From assembly GCA_947364235.1 (NCBI GenBank), contig CANARY010000005.1, forward strand, positions 124,001-188,000: 64,000 bases of DNA. The letters are read 5' to 3'. The notes below the pieces were generated by a model that saw only the letters and a program-made list of their open reading frames with translations, was not told where the DNA came from and did not search any database. This DNA is from an uncultured Candidatus Melainabacteria bacterium (GTDB lineage: Bacteria; Cyanobacteriota; Vampirovibrionia; Gastranaerophilales; Gastranaerophilaceae). Both the position numbers and the translations under genes were made by a program. Shown piece by piece: positions 21,945 to 51,390 of the stretch (positions within the stretch are counted from its first letter, which is position 1; each line of letters begins with the position of its first letter).

Positions 21945-23621
21945 TTACAGAAGCTGAAGAGCAGCAGCAGGAGCCTGGTTTGCAGTCGAAAGAAGTGTTG
22001 CTGAAGCCTGCTGCAAAATCTGATTTCTGATATATTCACTTGAAACCTCCCCTATATCAGCATCACGCATCGTTGACAAAGATGAAGTAATATTATCTAC
22101 ACTCACACTTATACTCTCCAGTGCAGATTCCAGCCGATTATAAACTGAGCCTATCTCAGTCTGCTTACTGCTTACAACAGACATTATGCTGTCAATACGA
22201 TTTAAAGCCTTTCGAGCACTTTCTGAGCTTGAAATCGCCATACCGGATATTGAAAAATCAAATGCAGTATCAATCATTATTTGAGATTCCATGCCTGAGT
22301 TAATACCAACCTGAAAATAAATTTCTGTATTTATTTGAGGCTGGAGTAAAGCGGCTCCAGGAAGCATACCGCTTAATATTAATTCTTTTAGCTCTGCAGA
22401 AGTTACTCCTGTTACACCGGCAGCATTACCTAAACCAACTCCGCCTGTTTGGCCTGATTTCTGAGTGTCCCAATAACAAGTATTGAGAGTCCCGTTATCA
22501 TTCCAGCCTAGAAATCCGGCAGTATTACTATTTCCTGTAACACTTCCTGAAGAATAAGATTTTGAAATACTTCCTTGAGAATTCTGGCCAACAAGTCCGC
22601 CGACACTTGTATTGCCTGAAACATCACCCTTCGAAAAACTATTTGTTATTGTTGAATTATCTGTATTATGCCCGACAAGCCCGCCTGCTCTGTAATCATC
22701 TGCACTTACAGAGGCTAATGAATAACAATCTTTTACAACTGAGCTGTAAATATTGCTTCCTGCAACAGCTCCAACATCACTGTAACCGGAAACTCTTCCA
22801 GCTACAAAACAGTTGGAAATTGTACTATTATAACTATAGCCTGCAATAGCTCCAACCCACATTTTACCGTTTACTTCTGCATCTTCCAGCCCAAGATTAG
22901 TAATTTTACCGCCTTCCATCCTCCCAATTAATCCAACGTAATCATAAGTATCGCGATTAAGGATTAAATTTGTAATCGAATGACCATTACCATTAAGCTC
23001 ACCCGTAAAAGGATTATTTATATTTCCAACTACATCCCAGTTATAACCCGACAAATCAATATCTTTCATCAAAATGTATTTTCCGCCTAAGTTATTTTTC
23101 ATCGCTTGAAGCTGGTCAGCAGTTTTAATAATAGAATAGCCTTGAGCTAAAGCTTCTTCCTCTGTTAAAATAGCAACCTCTTCGTCATTTGTTATAATAG
23201 GCTCTTTAAAAAGTTTAATGCCATTATACTCCGCATTTGAAATAATTCTTCTTATTTCATCAATACGTATATTAAACTCTGCCTGAATAGCATTTAGCGA
23301 ATCTTTTCCATATATACCGTTTGAAGCTTGCTCTGCAAGATCACGCATTCTGGATAAATGAGATGTCACAAGATTTAAATTTTCTTCTGCTGTCGTAAGT
23401 AAATCCATACCCATTGCAGTATTGCTTTGAGCTATCTGATAAGATGATAATTTACTTGAATATTGAGTTGAAATCGAATAACCAGCTGCATTATCACCAG
23501 CATGGTTTATTTTAAAACCAGTAGTTAATTTTTCAATTGCACTATTCAACCTTGCCGTAGAACAAGCAAGATTTTTTTGCACAATATTACTCACGTGATT
23601 TGTGGTTATAGTTAAACTCAA
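21945..23621 (-). CDS. Flagellin with GLUG-repeat beta-helix insert
   Basis: A 558-residue flagellin. Residues 1-140 match the N-terminal D0/D1 helices (LNSAIEKLTTGFKINHAGDNAAGYSIS, RMRDLAEQASNGIYG) and about 431-558 the C-terminal D1/D0 (YNRLESALESISVSVDNITSSLS to TANQAPAAALQLL). Between them sits a segment with YILMKDIDLSGYNW (182-195), FTGELNGNGHSITNL, and six GLUG-type repeats of about 27 residues (229-385, for example VGGLVGQNSQGSISKSYSSG) as found in adhesins and IgA-protease-like surface proteins. The start is TTG at 23621 with AAGGA 9 nt upstream. It would place a beta-helix domain on the filament surface. Monocistronic. Confidence 0.88.
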   Translation of the reverse strand: MSLTITTNHVSNIVQKNLACSTARLNSAIEKLTTGFKINHAGDNAAGYSISTQYSSKLSSYQIAQSNTAMGMDLLTTAEENLNLVTSHLSRMRDLAEQASNGIYGKDSLNAIQAEFNIRIDEIRRIISNAEYNGIKLFKEPIITNDEEVAILTEEEALAQGYSIIKTADQLQAMKNNLGGKYILMKDIDLSGYNWDVVGNINNPFTGELNGNGHSITNLILNRDTYDYVGLIGRMEGGKITNLGLEDAEVNGKMWVGAIAGYSYNSTISNCFVAGRVSGYSDVGAVAGSNIYSSVVKDCYSLASVSADDYRAGGLVGHNTDNSTITNSFSKGDVSGNTSVGGLVGQNSQGSISKSYSSGSVTGNSNTAGFLGWNDNGTLNTCYWDTQKSGQTGGVGLGNAAGVTGVTSAELKELILSGMLPGAALLQPQINTEIYFQVGINSGMESQIMIDTAFDFSISGMAISSSESARKALNRIDSIMSVVSSKQTEIGSVYNRLESALESISVSVDNITSSLSTMRDADIGEVSSEYIRNQILQQASATLLSTANQAPAAALQLL

Positions 23622-23674
23622 TACAACATATCCTTATATACTTATTATATGCTGAACATCTTATTTGTCAATCA

Positions 23675-23717: not shown

Positions 23718-24983
23718 ATGATTAAATCAATAATTTTAGCGGCTGGCAAAGGCACAAGAATGAAATCTGAAATGCCAAAAGTATTACATACAATTTTTAA
23801 CAAAGAATTAGTTGGATATATTTTAGATGCAGTTAATGGTATTACAGACGAAAATTTTGTTATAGTAGGCCACCAGGCAGAACTTGTTGAAAAGTACATA
23901 AAAAATAATTATGAAAACTCAAAATGTATATTGCAATCACCGCAATTAGGAACCGGACATGCAGTAAGCATGGCGCTTCCTTATCTTAAAGATTATGAAG
24001 GAGATATTGTTATTCTTTGCGGCGACACTCCGCTTATAACTTCGGAAACAATTAAAGAATTTGTTGAAAGTCATAAAGCTAATAATTCAGATTTAACAGT
24101 AATGAGCGCTATTTTTGAAAATCCTGCAAATTATGGACGAATTGTTAGAAATTCAGATGGCTCTTTAAACTCAATTGTGGAAGAAAAAGATGCTTCTTCT
24201 GAACAAAAAGCAATTAAAGAAATTAACGCAGGAATTTATTGTTTGAACTGGACTAAAATCAAATCAGCTTTTTCTGAGCTTAAATCTAATAACGCACAAG
24301 GCGAATACTATTTAACAGACATTGTAAAATGGGGTAATGAAAATGGATTAAAAGTAAACGCATATACTCTTAAAAATAACGAAGAAATATTCGGCATTAA
24401 CTCAAAAGCTCATCTTGCAGAAGCTTCAAAGATGCTTAATCAAAGAGTTATAAACAAACATCTTGAAAACGGAGTTCAAATTATTGATCCGCAGTCAACT
24501 TGGATAAGTCCTGATACAGAGATTGGTGCTGATACTATTATTTATCCATCTTGTTATATAAACGGAAAAAACAAAATTGGAAAGCATTGTAAAATTGGAC
24601 CATTTGCTCACTTAAGAGGAGATGTTATTCTTGAAGACAACGTTAAAATAGGAAATTTTGTTGAAGTCAAAAAGACTACAATAAAATCTCACACAAATGC
24701 TTGTCATCTTTCTTATTTAGGCGACTGCGAAATCGGTTCAGATGTAAATATAGGAGCAGGGACAATTACTGCGAATTACAACCCTTTAACAAAAATCAAA
24801 AGCAAAACCATTATTAAAGACAATGTAAAAATTGGCTCAAACTCTGTTCTTGTAGCTCCGCTTACTATAGAAGAAGGAGCAAACGTCGGAGCATTGAGTG
24901 TTATTACTAAAAATGTACCAGCTTGGGCATTAACACTCACAAGAGCTCCTCTTAGAGTTTTAGAAAATTGGGTAAAAAAATAA
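23718..24983 (+). CDS. glmU: Bifunctional UDP-GlcNAc pyrophosphorylase / GlcN-1-P acetyltransferase
   Basis: Makes UDP-GlcNAc for peptidoglycan and surface glycans. The N-terminal uridyltransferase domain begins LAAGKGTRMKSEMPKVLH; LCGDTPLI and NAGIYC are present. The C-terminal left-handed beta-helix has hexapeptide repeats (IGADTIIYPSCYINGKNKIG, IGPFAHLRGDVILEDNVKIGNFVEVKK) and the acetyltransferase-site segment GAGTITANYNP. At 421 residues it is about 35 shorter than E. coli GlmU, missing only the far C-terminal tail. Ends at a strong bidirectional terminator. Confidence 0.95.
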   Translation: MIKSIILAAGKGTRMKSEMPKVLHTIFNKELVGYILDAVNGITDENFVIVGHQAELVEKYIKNNYENSKCILQSPQLGTGHAVSMALPYLKDYEGDIVILCGDTPLITSETIKEFVESHKANNSDLTVMSAIFENPANYGRIVRNSDGSLNSIVEEKDASSEQKAIKEINAGIYCLNWTKIKSAFSELKSNNAQGEYYLTDIVKWGNENGLKVNAYTLKNNEEIFGINSKAHLAEASKMLNQRVINKHLENGVQIIDPQSTWISPDTEIGADTIIYPSCYINGKNKIGKHCKIGPFAHLRGDVILEDNVKIGNFVEVKKTTIKSHTNACHLSYLGDCEIGSDVNIGAGTITANYNPLTKIKSKTIIKDNVKIGSNSVLVAPLTIEEGANVGALSVITKNVPAWALTLTRAPLRVLENWVKK

Positions 24984-35688: not shown

Positions 35689-36576
35689 ATGGCTCTTACT
35701 ATAAATACAAACATGTCGTCTTTGATTGTTCAAAGTAATTTAAATGCAGCGACAAACATGTTAAATCGTTCTATTGAAAGAATGACAACAGGGTTTAAAA
35801 TAAACCACGCATCAGATAACGCTGCGGGCTATTCCATTGCAATTAACTGGAAAAAACAATTAAGTTCACTTGATATTGCAGCCGATAATGCAGCTACCGG
35901 TTCTGATATGATGACAACACTAGAAGACACTTATTCTTTAGTTTCTTCCCATCTTCAACGTGTAAGAGATTTAACAGAACAAGCTGCAAACGGAACTTAC
36001 GGTTCTGAGTCTTTAAAAGCAATAAGTTCTGAAATTACAGCAAGGTTAGAAGAAATCGACCGTATTGCAAGTAATTGTGAATTTAACGGACTTTATATGA
36101 TGGATGGCACAATGAAAAATGACATCTTTCTTCAGGTAGGATTATATAGTGATACTAACAGCCAGATAACTCTCAGCAAAGACTTATTTTTAGATGCTCA
36201 CGTATCAACATTATTTACAGATTTTGGAGATACTGCAGATGCAACAATTGAAAGCGTAGCTAAGCTTTGTTCAGGCTATGACGGTTCCAAAATAACCGGC
36301 GGTCAAAAAGATATGCTGAACAAAATTGATGGTGTAATTAACCAAATTTCATCAAGAAACAGCATATTAGGAGCGGCACAAAATAGAATTGAATCTGCAA
36401 CAGAATCAATAGGAGTTCAAACAGAGAATTTAACATCTTCTCTTTCTACACTCAGAGATTCTGATATTGCAGAAGAATCTTCAAACTATATAAAAGCGCA
36501 AATATTGCAGCAAGCTTCAGCATCATTGCTTGCAACTGCAAATCAAGCGCCGAGTATAGCATTAAACTTATTATAA
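35689..36576 (+). CDS. fliC: Flagellin
   Basis: A 295-residue flagellin of compact type. N-terminal D0/D1 (MALTINTNMSSLIVQSNLNAATNMLNRSIERMTTGFKINHASDNAAGYSIA, RVRDLTEQAANGTYG) and C-terminal D1/D0 (AQNRIESATESIGVQTENLTSSLSTLRDSDIAEESSNYIKAQILQQASASLLATANQAP) are intact; the middle domain is short (about 145-200). It is exported by the flagellar type III system and lacks a signal peptide. The 558-residue paralogue at 21945 shares both ends. Long structured 5' leader, own terminator. Confidence 0.95.
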   Translation: MALTINTNMSSLIVQSNLNAATNMLNRSIERMTTGFKINHASDNAAGYSIAINWKKQLSSLDIAADNAATGSDMMTTLEDTYSLVSSHLQRVRDLTEQAANGTYGSESLKAISSEITARLEEIDRIASNCEFNGLYMMDGTMKNDIFLQVGLYSDTNSQITLSKDLFLDAHVSTLFTDFGDTADATIESVAKLCSGYDGSKITGGQKDMLNKIDGVINQISSRNSILGAAQNRIESATESIGVQTENLTSSLSTLRDSDIAEESSNYIKAQILQQASASLLATANQAPSIALNLL

Positions 36577-45645: not shown

Positions 45646-46676
45646 TGATTTTAGCCGGAATGACTTTGGGAGAATTGGAAGATTTAATGAACAAGCTTGG
45701 AGCAACAAAATTTCGCGCCAAACAAGTTCATAATTGGATTTACGCAAAATCAGTTTCAACAATTGACGAGATGACAAATCTTTCCAAAGATTTTCGTGAA
45801 CAATTGAAAGAAACAGCAAGTGTTACCGAAACAAAAGTAAAAATAAAACAAGTCAGTAAAGATGGAACGATTAAGTATTTAGTCGAATTTCCTGACGGAG
45901 AATGTGTAGAAACGGTTCTCATGCGCTTCGATAACCGAGCAAACTTGACAGCTTGCGTTAGTTCGCAGGTCGGGTGTGCTGTAAACTGTTCTTTTTGCGC
46001 AACAGGAAAAGGCGGTTTTAAAAGAAACTTAACTTATCAAGAAATCATAGAACAAGTCTTAACAATTCAGCGCGATACAGGGCTTAAGGTTACTAATATC
46101 GTGTTTATGGGACAGGGCGAACCGCTTTTAAATCTTGACAACGTATTAAAAGCACTGGATATTTTTAACAATGATTTTCAAATCGGAGCAAGAAGGATTA
46201 CCATCTCTACGAGCGGTATTATTCCTGGTATTAATAAGCTATCAGAGTTAGAACTTCAATCAACTCTGGCAATTTCGCTTCATGCTCCAAATCATGATTT
46301 AAGGCGCGAACTAATGCCGATTGAAAACAGGTATCCGATTAATGAGTTAAAAAAATCGCTCAAAAACTACATCGATAAAACAGGGCGCAGAATTACAATT
46401 GAGTATATTTTAATCCACGGTTTTAACGATAACCCTGCTGTTGCAAAAGAGCTTGCGAATCTATTAAAAGATTTAAAATGCAATATAAACTTAATCCCAT
46501 ATAATTCTGTTATTGAAAATGATTATAAGAAACCTTCAAGCAATGATATTATGAAATTTAAGTATCTCCTTGAGCATTCAGGGAAAAAAGTTACCGTAAG
46601 GCTTGAGCGCGGAGCTGATATTGATGCGGCTTGCGGTCAATTACGCGGCAGGGAAAGGGCGCAAAAGGGTGAATAA
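45645..46676 (+). CDS. rlmN: 23S rRNA/tRNA adenine-C2 methyltransferase
   Basis: Radical SAM enzyme methylating A2503 of 23S rRNA and A37 of some tRNAs. The 343-residue protein has the Fe-S Cys motif CAVNCSFC (C111, C115, C118), GQGEPLLN, and the catalytic C-terminal Cys in AACGQL. Starts MILAGMTLGELEDL. Overlaps the preceding and following genes, consistent with a translationally coupled operon. Confidence 0.96.
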   Translation: MILAGMTLGELEDLMNKLGATKFRAKQVHNWIYAKSVSTIDEMTNLSKDFREQLKETASVTETKVKIKQVSKDGTIKYLVEFPDGECVETVLMRFDNRANLTACVSSQVGCAVNCSFCATGKGGFKRNLTYQEIIEQVLTIQRDTGLKVTNIVFMGQGEPLLNLDNVLKALDIFNNDFQIGARRITISTSGIIPGINKLSELELQSTLAISLHAPNHDLRRELMPIENRYPINELKKSLKNYIDKTGRRITIEYILIHGFNDNPAVAKELANLLKDLKCNINLIPYNSVIENDYKKPSSNDIMKFKYLLEHSGKKVTVRLERGADIDAACGQLRGRERAQKGE

Positions 46677-48555
46677 CATTTTCGAAAAAAATATTCAGGC
46701 ACTTGCTGCAAAAAACATTGAACTTGCAGAAAAGCTTGTTAAATATATTCCTACAGATATTCCGCAGCTCATTAATGAAAACGGAGCGTATAATTTAATA
46801 TACAAAAATATTCCGCTTCACCATCCTGCCAATCCTTTAGGAGAAGCGCGTGAAATTTTCTCAATGGCTGAAAACACTCCTGTAACAATACATCTGGTTT
46901 TCGGTATTGGACTGGGTTACTTGTTCCAAGTTGCTTCTGCAAATTCTGCCGGCACAGTTATACTTTATGAACCTGATTTAAATATATTAAAAATTGCATT
47001 CTCACTTGTAGACTTTTCAGAAGATATTTATAAGAACAATATTTTTATAGCTGAAACATTAGAAAAAACAGGAGAGTATTTATATACTAAATCTAATACG
47101 AAAAACCTTCCTCTTATGCTTTCTACAACTAATTACAGAGAGTTGAACAGCAAAAATTTTAACGAAATGGTTGAAAAGCTTCAAAGGATGATAGGCTCTT
47201 ATAACCTTGATTTAAAATACACTCAGGAAAAATTCTATCCGCTTGTAAGAAATATTTTAAATAACATACCAAACCTTATAAAAGAACCTCCTCTAAGCTC
47301 AATCAAAGATTTTTATAAAGGAAAAACAGCAGTGGTTGTATCTGCCGGTCCTACTTTAGACAAAAACATTGAAACAATAAAAAAATACCGTAACAATGTA
47401 GTATTAATTGTTGTAGGAACAGCAATGAAAACGCTCAGCCGGCATGGCATTACTCCAGATTTCTTATGCATTATTGAAACTTACGATTCTTCTAAACAAA
47501 TTGAAGGGCTTGATTTATCAGAAGTTAACTTCATAACAGAACCTTTTTCAAACAAGAACTTAAGAAAATTTAAGTTTAAACAAGTATTTTCACATTTATC
47601 GTCAAACCTTCCTGTTAACTCAATATGGAGTAATTTAATCAATGAAAATAGAGAAGAATATCTATCTAAAGGAACGGTATCTTACACAGCTTTAAATTCT
47701 GCAAGAATTCTCGGATGCTCTAAAATCGTTATGGTCGGGCAGGATTTAGCATACATTGAAGGTCAATGCTACAGTAAAGACTCTGCTTATAAAGACTTGA
47801 AATGCACTTGTAATGAAGGTAAATGGAAAATAACAGCAGCAAATTTCGAAGAGTTTGCGAATTCTTTAAGTAATTCTGCTGATATAGAGAAACGAAGAAC
47901 TGCGGCTTTAAGAAGACTTGAAAATTTAAACAACTCTCTATACTACGTAAAAGGTATTCAAGGAGATATGATTCCAACTGAATCTGTTTATGCAGCGTTC
48001 ATCAAGCCTTTAAGCGAGTTTGCAGAAATACATAATGACCGCGAATACATTAATACATCTATGGTTGGTGCTCAAATTGACGGTTATAAAAATATGGATT
48101 TAGAAGAAGCTTTGAAAGACTCTAAACCTATTGAAAACAGAAACATTGTTTTTGATTACAAATTTGATTTAGAAGAAGTTAAATCAAAACTTAAAGATGA
48201 AGTCTTGAAGCTGCAAAATATTTTATCAGATATAGAAAGCGGAAAAAAATATTTGAAAGCTTTGAATAATGATTTTAAAAGGCACAAAAATCCGACCGTT
48301 GAAGTTTTAAAAAGCTTAAAAAAAGCCTCAGCTGTATTTTTAAGCCTGAGTGAAAAAAATGCAGATACAATTTTTGATTTCATTACTGCTGCCGAAAAAA
48401 TCAATGTTGATTACGAAATGAAAATGGCAAGAAACTTTAACACAATCACTTTAAAAACATTAATAGAAAAGCTTTCAGCTTATTTTGAAAATGGAGAAAA
48501 GAAAACAAAATCAGTAATAGCATTAATTGAAAAAACAATCGGAGAGATTCAATGA
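46669..48555 (+). CDS. maf: Maf/DUF115-family motility accessory protein
   Basis: A 628-residue member of the Maf-type (DUF115, 6-hydroxymethylpterin pyrophosphokinase-like fold) family, implicated in transferring nonulosonic acids such as pseudaminic acid to flagellin. It starts at GTG 46669 (MNNIFEKNIQALAAKN), behind AAAGGG, inside the end of rlmN. The central fold shows GKTAVVVSAGPTLDKNIETIKKY, VVGTAMKTLSRHGITPDFLCIIETYD and ILGCSKIVMVGQDLAY. The C-terminal 150 residues are Lys-rich helices. The two flagellins here are likely targets (inference). Confidence 0.85.
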   Translation: MNNIFEKNIQALAAKNIELAEKLVKYIPTDIPQLINENGAYNLIYKNIPLHHPANPLGEAREIFSMAENTPVTIHLVFGIGLGYLFQVASANSAGTVILYEPDLNILKIAFSLVDFSEDIYKNNIFIAETLEKTGEYLYTKSNTKNLPLMLSTTNYRELNSKNFNEMVEKLQRMIGSYNLDLKYTQEKFYPLVRNILNNIPNLIKEPPLSSIKDFYKGKTAVVVSAGPTLDKNIETIKKYRNNVVLIVVGTAMKTLSRHGITPDFLCIIETYDSSKQIEGLDLSEVNFITEPFSNKNLRKFKFKQVFSHLSSNLPVNSIWSNLINENREEYLSKGTVSYTALNSARILGCSKIVMVGQDLAYIEGQCYSKDSAYKDLKCTCNEGKWKITAANFEEFANSLSNSADIEKRRTAALRRLENLNNSLYYVKGIQGDMIPTESVYAAFIKPLSEFAEIHNDREYINTSMVGAQIDGYKNMDLEEALKDSKPIENRNIVFDYKFDLEEVKSKLKDEVLKLQNILSDIESGKKYLKALNNDFKRHKNPTVEVLKSLKKASAVFLSLSEKNADTIFDFITAAEKINVDYEMKMARNFNTITLKTLIEKLSAYFENGEKKTKSVIALIEKTIGEIQ

Positions 48556-50475: not shown

Positions 50476-51390
50476 ATGCTCAAAATAGTCTGCGGAGCCG
50501 GTAACGAAGATTATGAGAGCGTTAAGCGCTTGGTTTATATTTATGCAAAAGCCGGATGTAAATGTTTTGATTTATCAGCCAGAAAAGAAATTTTAGAAGC
50601 AGCAAAAGAAGCAGCAAAAATAGCCGGTACTGCTGACTTAAAATACTGCGTAAGCGTAGGTATTAAAGGTGATAAGCATATTGCAAAAGCGCAAATAAAA
50701 GACAGTATTTGCATAAAATGTAAAAACTGTTTTAGAAACTGCCCTAATGATGCAATTTATTCTTCAATTATTATTGATGAAAAAAAGTGTATCGGATGCG
50801 GAGTTTGCGCAAAAAAATGCCCGGCAGGCGCGATTTCTATGACAGAAAAAGATGTTAATGTCAAAGAAATTCTGCCTTATATGGTTCAAAATGGAGTAGA
50901 AATATTAGAGCTTCATGTAATGGGACATGATAAAAAAGACTTGGAATATAAATGGAACATAATTAACGAGTGTAACCCTAAATTTGCTTCAATCTGTATC
51001 GACCGTGAAAACTTCGGCAACAAAGAAGTCTTGTCGCGCATTCAAGAAATGATTTCTCATAGAAAGCCTTACACAACTATCATCCAAGCTGATGGTATTC
51101 CGATGAGCGGAGCGGAAGACGATTTCAAAACAACTCTTCAAGCAGTTGCAATGGCAGAAATCATTCAAAATGCAGACATGCCGGTACATATAATGCTCTC
51201 AGGAGGAACAAACTCAAAAACAGCTGAGCTTGCAAAGCTTTGCGGAATAAATTACTGGGGAATAGCAATCGGTTCCTGGGCACGAAAAATTGTTAAGCCT
51301 TACACTTCTGCACCTGACTTTTGGGAAAATACCGAGATACAAAATAAAGCTGTTGAAACGGCAAAAGAATTGATTAGAGCTTCTGTTTAA
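50476..51390 (+). CDS. ldpA: LdpA-like Fe-S protein (circadian clock input homologue)
   Basis: A 304-residue protein with two 4Fe-4S clusters: C79, C82, C85, C89 and C105, C108, C111, C115 (CIKCKNCFRNCP and CIGCGVCAKKCP). The N-terminal LKIVCGAGN...YIYAKAGCKCFDLSA and the C-terminal IIQADGIPMSG, IMLSGGTNSKTAELAKLCGINYWGIAIGSWARKI follow the pattern of cyanobacterial LdpA, which senses redox state for the circadian clock. Here there is no visible kai gene, so its role is likely a more general redox one. Two nt after the FtsL-like gene. Confidence 0.85.
   Translation: MLKIVCGAGNEDYESVKRLVYIYAKAGCKCFDLSARKEILEAAKEAAKIAGTADLKYCVSVGIKGDKHIAKAQIKDSICIKCKNCFRNCPNDAIYSSIIIDEKKCIGCGVCAKKCPAGAISMTEKDVNVKEILPYMVQNGVEILELHVMGHDKKDLEYKWNIINECNPKFASICIDRENFGNKEVLSRIQEMISHRKPYTTIIQADGIPMSGAEDDFKTTLQAVAMAEIIQNADMPVHIMLSGGTNSKTAELAKLCGINYWGIAIGSWARKIVKPYTSAPDFWENTEIQNKAVETAKELIRASV

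Follow-up and report, generated by a model that had tools for sequence, protein, structure and literature searches.

This locus raises the question of whether a flagellin with a GLUG-repeat insert between its conserved ends is a working filament protein, and what such an insert would do there. The gene lies in a stretch of 64,000 nucleotides (the window, meaning the whole of the DNA analysed; Table 1) from an uncultured Candidatus Melainabacteria bacterium, probably gut-dwelling, with a genome of 1.93 Mb in 12 contigs. Flagella have been documented in the Melainabacteria/Gastranaerophilales group (PMC3787301). We consider it probable that the gene encodes a filament flagellin with a GLUG/M26-type beta-helix as its outer domain, and that it is a stable member of a paralog repertoire part of which is switched by poly-G tracts.

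Table 1 Features of the GLUG flagellin locus and of the compact flagellin, in window positions
Feature	Position	Strand	Basis
GLUG flagellin gene, 558 aa, TTG start	21945..23621	-	ORF; Flagellin_N, Flagellin_C, Glug, M26_N
N-terminal D0/D1 arm, residues 1-140	23202..23621	-	Pfam Flagellin_N; PDB flagellin matches
GLUG/M26-type parallel beta-helix insert, residues 143-430, D2/D3 position	22332..23195	-	Glug and M26_N matches; pLDDT; 3n6z
C-terminal D1/D0 arm, residues 431-558	21948..22331	-	Pfam Flagellin_C 474-558; flagellin matches reach upstream to 432
AAGGA Shine-Dalgarno-like element, 9 nt ahead of TTG start	23631..23635	-	Common to orthologs
Sigma-70 type promoter, TTGACA (-35), 16-nt spacer, TATAAT (-10)	23644..23671	-	12/12 consensus positions
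glmU-like gene, divergent neighbour, ortholog synteny marker	23718..24983	+	ORF, named from sequence
Compact flagellin, 295 aa, D0/D1 only	35689..36576	+	Flagellin_N and Flagellin_C

The first-pass annotation had described a flagellin with a GLUG insert, and the gene is indeed there: the open reading frame has the expected extent, and both flagellin ends and the insert are recognised by Pfam. Flagellin_N covers residues 5-139 (E = 2e-28; 99.6 bits against a cut-off of 26.6) and Flagellin_C residues 474-558 (E = 1e-16; 61.4 bits, cut-off 23). Between them, Glug matches in three separately significant stretches (E = 1.5e-15; 56.9 bits, cut-off 20.5) and Peptidase_M26_N at residues 168-275 (E = 2e-8; 34.1 bits, cut-off 27.7). 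The motifs on which the description had rested are legible in the translation, namely DIDLSGYNW, FTGELNGNGH and six GLUG-type coils. The placement of the insert between the conserved ends stood, while its length had been put too low at about 270 residues, the D1 arms enclosing about 288 (143-430).

Structurally, the insert was modelled by AlphaFold2, from an alignment of 40 sequences, as a parallel beta-helix at the D2/D3 position, which bears out the beta-helical fold that had been proposed. The mean pLDDT of the protein is 82, and residues ~150-420 mostly reach 90-98. The best match to the modelled insert is 3n6z, a putative IgA1 protease (Z = 33.3, rmsd 2.5, 266 residues aligned), and solved IgA1 proteases match as well (Z = 24.6-29.4); given this structural match and the Pfam E-values, a chance resemblance can be excluded. 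With the beta-helix of M26-type IgA1 proteases (3n6z, 7uvk, 6xja) the insert thus has in common its fold and its GLUG/M26_N family (Z = 24.6-33.3), but there the helix belongs to large proteins that are known or putative proteases, whereas here it stands alone inside a flagellin without a catalytic part. Rod-shaped surface domains of this kind also occur in adhesin-like proteins. Likewise, flagellinolysin (PMC5595980, PMC7643111) carries a folded foreign domain in the central hypervariable region of flagellin, but that insert is a metallopeptidase and ours a beta-helix; HExxH is absent from the 558-aa translation and Pfam reports no peptidase catalytic domain, so the protein is not a flagellinolysin-type protease. 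The giant flagellins of marine gamma-proteobacteria also have large outer domains, some with repeats, replacing D2/D3, although in the accessible part of that report the DE and DX region inserts are not GLUG and a leader switch is not described (PMC6248924). In the open-access papers searched we did not find flagellin and GLUG together in one paper.

The arms of the predicted model match filament flagellin structures, from filaments and crystals alike, with Z of ~18-20.5. We see little reason to read the protein as the hook-filament junction protein FlgL or a secreted relative, which we hold to be very improbable: the FlgL model TIGR02550 does match it, with 85.9 bits, but this is under the cut-off of 127.2, NCBIfam groups the protein with flagellins, a separate FlgL adjoins a FlgK-like gene on contig C6, and the arms match filament flagellins best. 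As a filament flagellin, it would leave the cell through the flagellar apparatus and would polymerise by means of its D0/D1 arms, with or beside the compact flagellins, and the beta-helix would project outward from the filament surface. Such display is likely; the orientation of the helix is not fixed by the model, because the linkers joining it to the arms are poorly modelled (pLDDT <50 at 141-147 and 424-430).

A GLUG insert had been thought unusual for a flagellin, which does not apply within this lineage. The 11 Flagellin_N matches in the genome comprise five compact flagellins, five GLUG flagellins and one FlgL, so that at least 5/10 flagellins carry GLUG inserts (two of the five are cut at contig starts), and all GLUG matches of the genome fall within flagellin ORFs. 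Maf-like and FliI-like genes are present in the window, and further flagellar genes, named from sequence, lie on contig C6 (FlgK-, FlgL- and FlgH-like, FlgH being the outer-membrane ring protein). The protein encoded at window 46603-48555 is MptE-like and matches the Maf N-terminal domain; its gene resembles those of flagellin glycosyltransferases, which suggests that the flagellins may be glycosylated. The window also encodes, at 50476-51390, an LdpA_C domain protein with 4Fe-4S motifs; this family is known from cyanobacteria, and its presence is a hint of cyanobacterial-side ancestry. Taken with the flagella and the FlgH-like protein, the LdpA_C domain suggests an organism of the Melainabacteria/Gastranaerophilales type.

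Syntenic orthologs were found beside glmU in five other species, the 5′ end of glmU being legible upstream of L061-L064 and L071. Four are intact, at 58% identity to the window gene, and one is frameshifted, a T8 run within its insert marking the split (L125, G062:C7 ~102619), which may reflect a real mutation, slippage or an assembly error. The possibility, raised beforehand, that the insert would be missing in relatives fails because it is kept in them. As for the gene being a silent copy, the window gene and the four other orthologs are intact, as are its promoter and start site, with the G062 copy as the frameshifted exception. Towards the intact orthologs, the insert shows 48-51% identity and the arms 64-70%, and with a dN of 0.18-0.45 against a dS ranging from about 1.5 to saturated, the insert is under purifying selection yet evolves more quickly than the arms.

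These data bear on two further explanations. That the GLUG flagellins are a store of silent or seldom used copies recombining with an expressed locus would fit their number, the frameshifted ortholog, and the 55 identical bases, inside the N-terminal region of two GLUG paralogs, with which contigs C7 and C12 both open (G000:C7:1-55, C12:1-55). The common bases mark an assembly break at paralog repeats, the first 35 of them occurring nowhere but at those two contig starts. The window gene argues against this explanation, which we judge decidedly improbable: it has a perfect promoter of its own, its start site and location are conserved, and purifying selection on it is strong. A stronger contender, possible though clearly not our first choice, is that the insert serves as an antigenic cover, as a shield against phage or TLR5 recognition, or as an outer domain that adjusts the mechanics of the filament, and not as a ligand-binding adhesin. 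Flagellar outer domains have been described as hypervariable and as able to alter motility in viscous surroundings (PMC8931119, PMC10256154); the insert has diverged more than the arms, and the switching discussed below would fit antigenic diversity. On the other side, the fold is known from large surface and secreted proteins, and also from GLUG ORFs of ~4,000-11,000 aa, which is at most suggestive of binding. We favour a displayed helix that most likely would bind a surface or glycan, or else vary the exposed antigen, and consider the adhesive role proposed at first plausible, its standing as a minor filament component being conjectural.

Many genomes of the genus encode GLUG flagellins, as do several other genera of the family; from a second family of the order, one sampled genome has them, and outside the order, the phylum sample yielded none at the cut-off used. 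In a tree of the arms, built quickly and containing long branches, one branch (support 96) sets all 38 compact flagellins apart, and the orthologs of the window gene make up a clade of their own (support 99). The giant ORFs of relatives (G045:C4, G039:C158, G043:C67-C68, G126:C5) have GLUG stretches that, in the genus, match the flagellin insert at 41-48% identity, and they are possible sources or relatives of it. Two giant flagellins were also encountered, one of 1,796 aa with a large insert without Pfam Glug (L168, G016:C15) and one of 997 aa with a G9 leader tract (L169, G125:C28).

How the window gene is expressed can be judged from its upstream region. The syntenic orthologs L061-L064 likewise show TTGACA and a TATA-rich -10, and AAGGATA starts at position -14 both in the window gene and in each of L061, L062, L063 and L064. 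Since the AAGGA site starts the flagellin itself, the window gene is without leader-ORF control, and since neither strand of the window contains a G8 run, switching by a poly-G tract does not apply to it. From the perfect sigma-70 promoter together with direct initiation, the gene is probably constitutive, and would act as the stable, always-on member of the repertoire. A known RNA element was looked for in the leaders, and for the window and the loci tried, Rfam returned no match other than tRNAs.

In many paralogs, the AAGGA-type element sits before an upstream ORF (uORF), not before the flagellin start. In the same genome as the window, two further GLUG flagellins have longer leaders whose uORF contains a G11 tract (L006, G000:C2:183705-183715; L008, G000:C5:107444-107454), and at G11 both uORFs end ahead of the flagellin start. 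Among flagellins with enough upstream DNA, such tracts (>=8 G within 350 nt upstream) precede 21/73 GLUG flagellins and 0/43 compact ones. The raw count of the script was 20/72 versus 1/44 (Fisher p = 3e-4), the sole "compact" positive, L155, being a GLUG flagellin cut by a contig end, which we moved to its proper class. A sequencing artefact is argued against by the position of the tracts inside contigs, their conserved flanks, their occurrence in many genomes and the existence of interrupted versions (L066, L095); the C65 run in which L096 ends probably is one. The close relatives L132 and L133 have G9 and G13 in near-identical leaders, lengths that are approximate as they come from assemblies. 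The paralogs thereby display two hallmarks of slipped-strand variation, a length difference between close relatives and a frame-changing tract position, the latter in 22 leaders. As separate observations, the upstream regions of six GLUG flagellins in other genomes (L083, L090, L093, L094, L107, L113) contain a GC-rich repeat (CCCTCGCCCCTTG.GGGAGAGG and similar), possibly a mobile repeat standing in for the leader, and the same genome as the window has poly-G tracts within or adjoining tandem ORFs that show DPPY methyltransferase motifs (L059, G000:C7:110033-110043, 110607-110615), which are candidate phase-variable DNA methyltransferases.

For the 22 tract-bearing leaders (the 21 above and that of the 997-aa flagellin), a small ORF can be traced through the tract in every case, with one length class leaving it open to the flagellin start (two classes in L147). 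The overlap of the open uORF with that start is 1-14 nt long and in every case out of frame, and an in-frame open path was found in 0/22. Dinucleotide shuffles of the stretch from tract to start gave an expectation of 6.3 open paths against the 22 observed. The same overlap occurs without a tract: among leaders with an AAGGAT-type element and no tract, 12/14 uORFs overlap the start (1.3 expected). As the samples are related sequences, so that probabilities are not independent, and the search was exploratory, the probability products denote strong enrichment and not exact p-values. At their assembled length, 10 of the 12 tract-bearing GLUG leaders with a recognised element stop early and would be OFF. 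A further 29 GLUG flagellins have neither tract nor recognised leader element, and the leader match of L150 looks like a chance element.

These statistics suggest slipped-strand switching of the flagellin repertoire via translational coupling. In many paralogs, the AAGGA-type element would start a leader ORF that terminates at the flagellin start codon, and in some of these paralogs this ORF would cross the mutable poly-G tract. Slippage would alter the G count and hence the frame of the uORF; in the ON state, ribosomes would terminate on the flagellin start and be coupled to it, and in the OFF state they would stop early. Alternatively, the tract could serve as a target for an sRNA or as an element of mRNA structure that tunes translation by its length, as the variable G-repeat in the leader of H. 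pylori tlpB, regulated by the sRNA RepG, would suggest (PMC8295292). We regard this as unlikely, because neither an off-frame open path in 22/22 leaders with an in-frame path in none, nor the retention of uORF overlap in tract-free leaders, would be expected if the G-run alone mattered. The tlpB leader resembles the coupled leaders proposed here in having a variable G tract in the mRNA leader, but tract length here would also set the frame of a coupled uORF. Similarly, poly-G/C phase variation in Campylobacter (PMC8355987) combines a mutable G tract with a surface protein, a likeness confined to our paralogs, but here the tract lies in a short leader ORF overlapping the next start and would act by coupling. 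In the open-access papers searched on phase variation and uORF coupling, we did not find a tract placed in a coupled leader ORF.

The switchable leaders are the more surprising feature, and they belong to the paralogs, not to the window gene. On balance, we lean towards a picture in which a probable gut lineage has beta-helix flagellins, several of them phase-switched by poly-G through a coupled leader ORF, with the window gene and the compact flagellins making up the basal filament.

Flagellar outer domains are usually treated as antigens or as spacers with a mechanical role, and enzymatic flagellin inserts are a recent discovery. The lineage that carries these beta-helix flagellins is little studied, and what is new here is the combination of poly-G tracts and start-overlapping uORFs in GLUG flagellin leaders, a signature that can be searched for in other genomes. 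If true, this would be a mechanism of flagellar phase variation apart from DNA inversion and from tracts within the structural gene. An IgA-protease-family beta-helix on several flagellins per genome, some of them apparently switched, would unite motility, surface display and phase variation.
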